Assembly (NCBI GenBank): GCA_003577145.1
Contig: QEUP01000001.1
Coordinates: 186,001 to 250,000, forward strand
DNA from: Acidobacteriota bacterium
GTDB lineage: Bacteria > Actinomycetota > Acidimicrobiia > Acidimicrobiales > Microtrichaceae
Direction of reading: 5' to 3'
Length of the DNA: 64,000 nucleotides
In this document: positions 711-47,323 of the stretch, one piece after another
Layout of the letters: each line of letters starts with the position of its first letter
Numbering within the stretch: the first letter of the stretch is position 1
Translations under genes and position numbers: made by a program
Notes under the pieces: model-generated
Database searches by the model: none
What the model was told of the DNA's origin: nothing
What the model saw: only the letters and a program-made list of their open reading frames with translations

Positions 711-796
711 GTGAGCACATCAGGAGCGGCCCGAGAGGGTCCGGCAACCTGGGACGGACACCCAAGGTGCTATCCCGTCGCCAAGCGGGGATGTGG
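711..796 (+). promoter_or_regulatory. SAM riboswitch (SAM-I/SAM-IV clan) upstream of metX
   Basis: The core signature CCGGCAACC (about 752-760) is followed by AAGGTGCTA (about 774-782), the conserved SAM-binding core of the S-box clan. P1 pairs CACATC (716-721) with GATGTG (790-795). A short P2 can form between GGCCC and GGGTC. P3 is TGGG/CCCA around a 7-nt loop, and P4 is CCCG/CGGG. The element is compact, lacking the long kink-turn P2 of classical SAM-I, so a SAM-I/IV variant is likely. It lies 116 nt ahead of the metX start, so S-adenosylmethionine probably represses the two methionine genes downstream. No obvious intrinsic terminator follows, which suggests translational control. Confidence 0.85.
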
Positions 797-911
797 TTCC
801 TGGAGCAGCGCAGCTGCCGGGCACAACGAAATGTCCGAGCGTCACCCCCAGGGGAGCGGGATCGGCGCACGGCGCCGAAGGTGTCCTCCACCGAGAACGG
901 AGGAGTTGGAC

Positions 912-6558: not shown

Positions 6559-6634
6559 GCGGACGTAGCTCAGCTGGTAGAGCATCACCTTGCCAAGGTG
6601 AGGGTCGCGAGTTCGAATCTCGTCGTCCGCTCCA
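6559..6634 (+). tRNA. tRNA-Gly(GCC)
   Basis: A full cloverleaf can be drawn: acceptor GCGGACG/CGTCCGC, a D arm with AGCTCAGCTGGTAGAGC, anticodon loop TTGCCAA (anticodon GCC) on a TCACC/GGTGA stem, T arm GTTCGAATC, and an encoded CCA. It marks the left side of the accessory island. Confidence 0.97.
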
Positions 6635-24657: not shown

Positions 24658-24731
24658 GGCGGCGTGGCCGAGTGGTTAGGCAGAGGCCTGCAAAGCCTTG
24701 TACACCGGTTCGATTCCGGTCGCCGCCTCCA
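24658..24731 (+). tRNA. tRNA-Cys(GCA)
   Basis: Acceptor GGCGGCG/CGCCGCC with U discriminator and encoded CCA, anticodon loop CTGCAAA (anticodon GCA) on a GGC/GCC-containing stem, and T arm GGTTCGATTCC. U73 and the GCA anticodon are cysteine identity elements. Confidence 0.96.
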
Positions 24732-28512: not shown

Positions 28513-28589
28513 GGGCCGTTGGCGCAGTTGGCTAGCGCACCTCCATGACGCGGAGGGGGTCACAGGTTCGAGTCCTGTACGGCCCACCA
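28513..28589 (+). tRNA. tRNA-Val(GAC)
   Basis: Acceptor GGGCCGT/ACGGCCC, A discriminator and encoded CCA. The D arm contains GGCGCAGTTGGCTAGCGC. The anticodon stem CCTCC/GGAGG carries loop ATGACGC (anticodon GAC), and the T arm is CAGGTTCGAGTCCTG. Confidence 0.96.
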
Positions 28590-46198: not shown

Positions 46199-47323
46199 GT
46201 GGTCAACGGAGTCGGTCTCCTCTTCGGTCCGCTGCTCACCATCGCCCTCACGGCTGCTGCGTGCTCCAGTGCGACCAGTCAGGAGCAGGTGGCGGCCGAT
46301 CACGCATCGGAGGAGGAGGCCGGCTCGACCACCGTTGCGCCCGGGGACTCAAACGACGACCAGGGCTCGACCGCGGCTGACACCTTCGATGAGGACTACC
46401 TCATGCTCAACGGCGGCGCTGGAACTGCGATCGACGACCCGGCGTTCATCCCCGCCGACGAGGTGAGCTGGCTTGACGACGACGACGTGGTGCTCGGTTG
46501 GGTGAGCGACGACGGTGGCGCCTACGCCTTTCCCGTCATGCAGATGGCGTACCACCACATCGCTCAGGGCGACATCTCAGGCGAGCCCTACCTCGTCACC
46601 TATTGAGTGGTCTGCTCCTCCGGGGTCGGTTTCGATCCCGTCGTCGATGGGACCCGGTACCGGTTCGACAACGCCGGGTTGTACAACGGCCTGTTCGTCA
46701 TGGCCGACCGGACCACGGGATCGGTCTGGACCCACTATGACGGCACAGTGCTGCAGGGCCCCCTCGCCGAAGCAGGCGCGCGACTGGAGATCGTCCCGCT
46801 GGTGCATCTGACCTGGGAGGACTGGAAGGCGGAGTACCCCGACAGCCGTGTGATGGATTGGATCGACGAGTTCGCCCAGCGCTATCGCGAGGTGGATCCG
46901 GGCCGGCCAGGCTTGTCCGAGACGTTCACGGAGACCATCCAGAACTTCGATGACCGGCTGGCGCAGAACGAGCTCGTGCTCGGGGTCGGCGTGAGCGGCG
47001 AGTACCGTGCCTACGTGCTTGCCGACCAGCCGGCGGAGCTGACCGTGGTGCACGACATCCTCGGCGGGGAGCCGATAGCGGTGTTCATCGATCCGTCGAG
47101 CAGCTTCGGCATCGCCTACTCGACGCGGCTGGATGGTGAGACCCTCGAGCTCTTTGTTTCCGATGGCGAGGTGGTGGACGCGTCGGGGAGCGTGTGGAAC
47201 AGCAGCGGCAGGGCGGTCAGCGGACCCCGCGCAGGGTCTCAGCTCACCTTCGTGACGAGCTTCGTCACCGAGTGGTACGGCTGGGTCGCCTACCACCCCG
47301 AGACGAGCATCTACGGCGAGTGA
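46199..47323 (+). CDS. DUF3179 lipoprotein with in-frame TGA (candidate selenoprotein)
   Basis: The two halves are collinear in one frame, separated only by TGA at 46604-46606 (codon 136). The N-terminus has a lipobox (ALTAAAC). The domain before the TGA reads VLGWVSDDGGAYAFPVMQMAYHHI and EPYLVTY; after it come VVCSSGVGFDP, NAGLYNGLFVMADRTTGSVW and LTWEDW. This is the DUF3179 order, where the family has a CxxC after VTY. Here the first Cys is replaced by TGA (U-V-V-C139). A 7-bp hairpin with a GG-starting loop lies 21 nt downstream. The product would be a 374-residue exported redox-type protein. Ordinary stop read-through or a nonsense mutation is the alternative. Confidence 0.8.
46604..46640 (+). 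promoter_or_regulatory. candidate bacterial SECIS element
   Basis: The TGA codon (46604-46606) is followed by the stem CGGGGTC (46621-46627) and GATCCCG (46634-46640), 7 bp including one wobble. The apical loop GGTTTC begins with two G and a U, as in bacterial SECIS hairpins that bind SelB. The distance from TGA to the loop is 21 nt, within the usual range. The stem encodes ordinary DUF3179 residues. Confidence 0.7.

Follow-up and report, generated by a model that had tools for sequence, protein, structure and literature searches.

A conserved in-frame TGA and SECIS-like hairpin point to a selenocysteine-containing DUF3179 lipoprotein in Acidimicrobiia

Our analyses support, with very little doubt left, the decoding of UGA as selenocysteine (Sec) in a DUF3179 gene of the window, i.e. 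the whole 64,000-nucleotide stretch of an Acidimicrobiia genome that was analysed here. This reading follows from a TGA located at the position of a family Cys, from the conservation of both this TGA and a hairpin behind it, and from a full Sec machinery in the genome. The gene adds a well-supported member to a family of selenoproteins that was already known. DUF3179 (PF11376) is included, with a UxxC/T motif, in review lists of prokaryotic selenoproteins (PMC9312934, PMC13188914), the latter crediting the DUF3179 selenoprotein to Zhang and Gladyshev 2007, from the Olavius algarvensis delta symbiont. The link between DUF3179 and selenoproteins that an earlier note on this DNA tentatively raised is therefore real and, because the family was already listed, the novelty is lower than that note implied. 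DUF3179 was seldom named in the literature searched, and the available portions of PMC9312934 and PMC13188914 give no function for the selenoprotein. Known DUF3179 selenoproteins share with the window protein the Pfam family and Sec at the first UxxC position, whereas the window member belongs to a group from Acidimicrobiia, Chloroflexota and Acidobacteriota. This Sec group, the covariation of its SECIS and a predicted duplicated Rieske-like fold were not found in the literature searched that names DUF3179.

Two open reading frames (46199-46606 and 46607-47323) lie in one frame on the forward strand, with a single TGA (46604-46606) between them, so that ordinary gene calling divides the gene, as had been anticipated. 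Taken as a whole, it spans 46199-47323 (+), ends at a true TGA stop (47321-47323, read from the sequence) and would encode 374 residues if UGA is Sec and a GTG start is assumed. The GTG at 46199 is the only ATG, GTG or TTG codon from the upstream in-frame stop to the lipobox Cys; its ribosome-binding site is weak and the start uncertain. When read through, the protein around the TGA is TY-U-VVC-SSGVGFDP, with Sec at residue 136 and the second residue of UxxC, Cys139 (46613-46615), invariant in the alignment. The only Pfam match of the read-through protein is DUF3179 (profile search, 181.1 bits against a gathering cut-off of 27, E 4e-53), which covers residues 77-369 and spans the TGA, bearing out the claim that family sequence resumes directly after it. 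No NCBIfam model was hit, whether by this protein or by the 38 sequences of the alignment, and no second DUF3179 gene was found in the same genome. The N-terminus is hydrophobic and is followed by a putative lipobox Cys (residue 22, LTAAAC, 46262-46264), a lipobox-like Cys being shared with relatives L025, L026, L028, L029, L030 and L032, which suggests, in agreement with the earlier note, a DUF3179 lipoprotein. Elsewhere in the window, a SAM-I/IV riboswitch aptamer (712-840, forward strand) scored above the Rfam gathering score, and three tRNA genes were located at 6559-6631, 24658-24728 and 28513-28586 (+).

Relatives were collected by scanning named bacterial and archaeal genome contigs, which yielded 19, among them 16 that cover the TGA site. 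All 16 carry TGA at exactly the same codon at 39-60% identity, and they come from Actinomycetota (Acidimicrobiia), Chloroflexota and Acidobacteriota MAGs, i.e. three phyla; L032 and L033 are apparently the same genomes as G096 and G206. More distant homologues from the same order have TGC or TGT at the aligned codon in 30 of 30 loci (a count that includes a few genes under two locus ids, independent genes being somewhat fewer), nearly all with a CPLC motif. The alignment thus substantiates the assertion that the TGA replaces the first Cys of the family CxxC, with Cys in the Cys-type forms and TGA in every nearer relative covering the site. These Cys-type proteins belong to the same family and have CxxC at the same position with a preceding His, but differ from the window protein in carrying Cys for Sec, in the lack of a conserved SECIS-like hairpin and in being only ~27-39% identical. 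The Sec form was also found in four other genomes of the order; the genomes sampled from the window's own taxonomic family carry either a Cys-type gene or nothing closely similar, and a phylum-wide sample gave no further close copies. In a tree the Sec forms cluster, possibly as a single clade, with 2 label changes compared to 12.5 in shuffles. One very divergent DUF3179 sequence, L101 (G172), sits on a long branch and has LCEAC in place of YCPLC. Four matches to the query (L040:5001-5291, L041:5001-5303, L042:10-168 and G367:C6:33481-33786) cover the C-terminal half only, and are possibly single-repeat proteins or broken genes.

A SECIS-like hairpin lies at 46621-46640 (+), its stem formed by 46621-46628 and 46633-46640. 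Counted as 8 bp, it encloses the loop GUUU (46629-46632), starting 22 nt after the TGA; counted as 7 bp, the loop is GGUUUC (46628-46633) and starts 21 nt after it, exactly the 7-bp stem and GGU-type loop previously described. Published rules for bacterial SECIS elements, as given in the available text of PMC13188914, call for a loop of 3-9 nt, a stem of 4-16 bp, a G in the first two loop positions, a distance of 16-37 nt from the UGA and an MFE at or below -7.5. With 8 bp, GUUU, 22 nt and -12.6 kcal/mol, the window hairpin falls within these rules, as the bacterial geometry claimed for it implied. In the window sequence alone it stands out only modestly, being equalled in 73 of 3000 synonymous-codon shuffles, and the case for a SECIS therefore rests on conservation. 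A hairpin is possible at the same place after the TGA in all 17 sequences (window plus relatives), although that of L030 is weak under a strict loop rule. Across these 17 sequences 93.4% of the stem cells are paired, a share that never exceeds 62.5% in slid controls. Two stem pairs show compensatory changes (A-U/G-C/G-U at columns 22-33 and C-G/U-A at columns 24-31), and synonymous-codon conservation peaks over the hairpin, codons 142-148 ranking top among 272 windows. The hairpin across the relatives is far beyond chance. Among the Cys-type homologues no consistent hairpin matching this one in position and shape was found; a few have unrelated weak hairpins, and one, L052, reaches -8.9.

The search for selA, selB, selC and selD proposed in the earlier note recovered all four in the genome. 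Together with the Cys that Cys-type homologues carry at the aligned site, both checks that the note set against its own reading thus came out in its favour. A tRNA-Sec(UCA) scores 63 bits, above the Rfam cut-off, and is also called tRNA-SeC by ARAGORN. SelA is encoded on contig C26 with SelB directly after it, one of the SelB matches being located late in its C-terminal region, and SelD (L020, C10:79776-80696, reverse strand) has an in-frame TGA of its own, with Sec at GAG-U-ACK. Of the 16 genomes carrying Sec-form DUF3179, 14 have selA over the cut-off, and the assemblies of 2 of the 16 Sec-form relatives, both MAGs, are without a full selA. Within the order, selA occurs in 5/5 genomes with the Sec form; it is common there in general (236/397 genomes), and its presence is consequently weak evidence.

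Two other readings of the TGA were considered. That it is a plain premature stop, produced by pseudogenization or assembly error and followed by a mere remnant, would agree with the two ORFs of standard annotation, but it is contradicted by the TGA at the same codon in 16 contigs from three phyla at 39-60% identity, by family sequence that is intact on either side and by synonymous constraint over the hairpin; given the conservation of the TGA in relatives, this explanation is in practice refuted. Recoded UGA tRNAs for Cys exist elsewhere, and the Cys that homologues carry at the aligned site would suit a UGA read as Cys, or as another residue, through a suppressor or recoded tRNA. Such decoding is nevertheless highly improbable here, if marginally less so than a broken gene, as the canonical Sec machinery is complete and accompanied by a Sec-type SelD, the SECIS-like hairpin is conserved, and UGA also serves as the normal stop of the same DUF3179 gene. 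By far the most probable reading is decoding as Sec, in which tRNA-Sec(UCA) and SelB insert Sec at 46604-46606 under the direction of the hairpin at 46621-46640, giving one extracytoplasmic, probably lipid-anchored DUF3179 selenoprotein.

The DUF3179 domain has a clear internal duplication, its N- and C-terminal halves matching each other with E 2.3e-24 (hhalign). The first half (approximately residues 90-217, 46466-46849, +), recognised from hhalign, AlphaFold (AF2) modelling and fold matches, bears the Sec/Cys site, and the second (approximately residues 252-370, 46952-47308, +) has no Cys or Sec. AlphaFold models reached pLDDT 86 for the whole protein and 93.9 for the N-domain alone. Among the matches listed by VIA-align, those to both halves are Rieske-fold proteins, including the cluster-less NirD, and the 50 matches listed for the N-domain model are all Rieske-fold chains or complexes containing them; among the matches listed, the best for the first half had Z 9.0 (2.5 A over 83 residues), and one mostly on the second half had Z 8.0. 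Foldseek comparison with solved structures gave weak E-values, above 0.001, a sequence search found no solved structure, and profile comparison with the Rieske domains of the order lent no support at the sequence level (probabilities of 0.2 and 12.7). The likeness is therefore taken as a structural lead and not as demonstrated homology: each half is predicted to take up a Rieske-like fold that lacks the iron-sulphur ligands, a fold not found described in the literature searched that names DUF3179. The protein would resemble Rieske-fold proteins, NirD among them, in the predicted fold of both halves, but differs in the absence of the ligands CxH...CxxH, the mature domain having only Sec136 and Cys139 and no CxH, and in a CxxC/UxxC that seems to be on another hairpin, with no sequence-profile support. 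We considered the equation of CPLC with the Rieske ligand motif CPxH and dropped it, since there is no counterpart of the first ligand pair, CxH, and the aligned ranges seem to put CxxC on an earlier hairpin. From the models, the mature protein would comprise two Rieske-like beta domains derived from duplication; that it is a tandem cluster-less Rieske-like protein whose first domain gained a new His/Cys(Sec)/Cys site on one of its beta hairpins is a proposal that we regard as evenly poised.

Nearly every member has just two Cys/Sec residues in its mature domain, at positions 136 and 139. At least one His, at 119 and/or 120 (codons 46553-46558), precedes UxxC/CxxC in every alignment row, H119 being present in 36 of 38 rows and H120 in all 16 Sec forms. 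The AlphaFold model predicts hairpin strands at 121-126 and 129-136, which should place His119/His120 beside Sec136, so that the first domain would display Sec136 and Cys139, its sole chalcogen residues, next to this His pair on a beta hairpin. Judging from motif and family, on which the redox role rests, the protein most likely works as an extracytoplasmic lipoprotein with a selenenyl-sulphide/thiol redox site, a role we hold to be slightly more probable than not. The neighbourhoods of ten Sec-form loci were compared, and no gene recurred as a partner except within closely related pairs. As the main alternative, the Sec site might be a metal site with His119/His120, Sec136 and Cys139 as ligands, in an electron carrier or metal-binding lipoprotein. 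The His before UxxC in all rows, its inferred approach to Sec136 across the hairpin strands and the resemblance of the predicted fold to Rieske electron carriers are consistent with this, but the Rieske cluster ligands are missing and the site, as inferred from aligned ranges, seems to be away from the Rieske cluster position. Sec, moreover, usually substitutes for a catalytic redox Cys, and we consider metal binding rather unlikely.

The reading of UGA as Sec implies that ordinary ORF calling would truncate the Sec-form gene in the window and in its 16 relatives, across three phyla. The Sec form singles out the CxxC of the widespread DUF3179 family as a probable site of reactivity. A concrete handle for assay is offered by the duplicated Rieske-like fold predicted here; if that fold is true, the Sec form would place a selenium-based centre, for redox chemistry or metal binding, on a scaffold resembling that of Rieske proteins. 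Our results also suggest that Acidimicrobiia, which rarely feature in the selenocysteine literature searched, use Sec in an extracytoplasmic lipoprotein.
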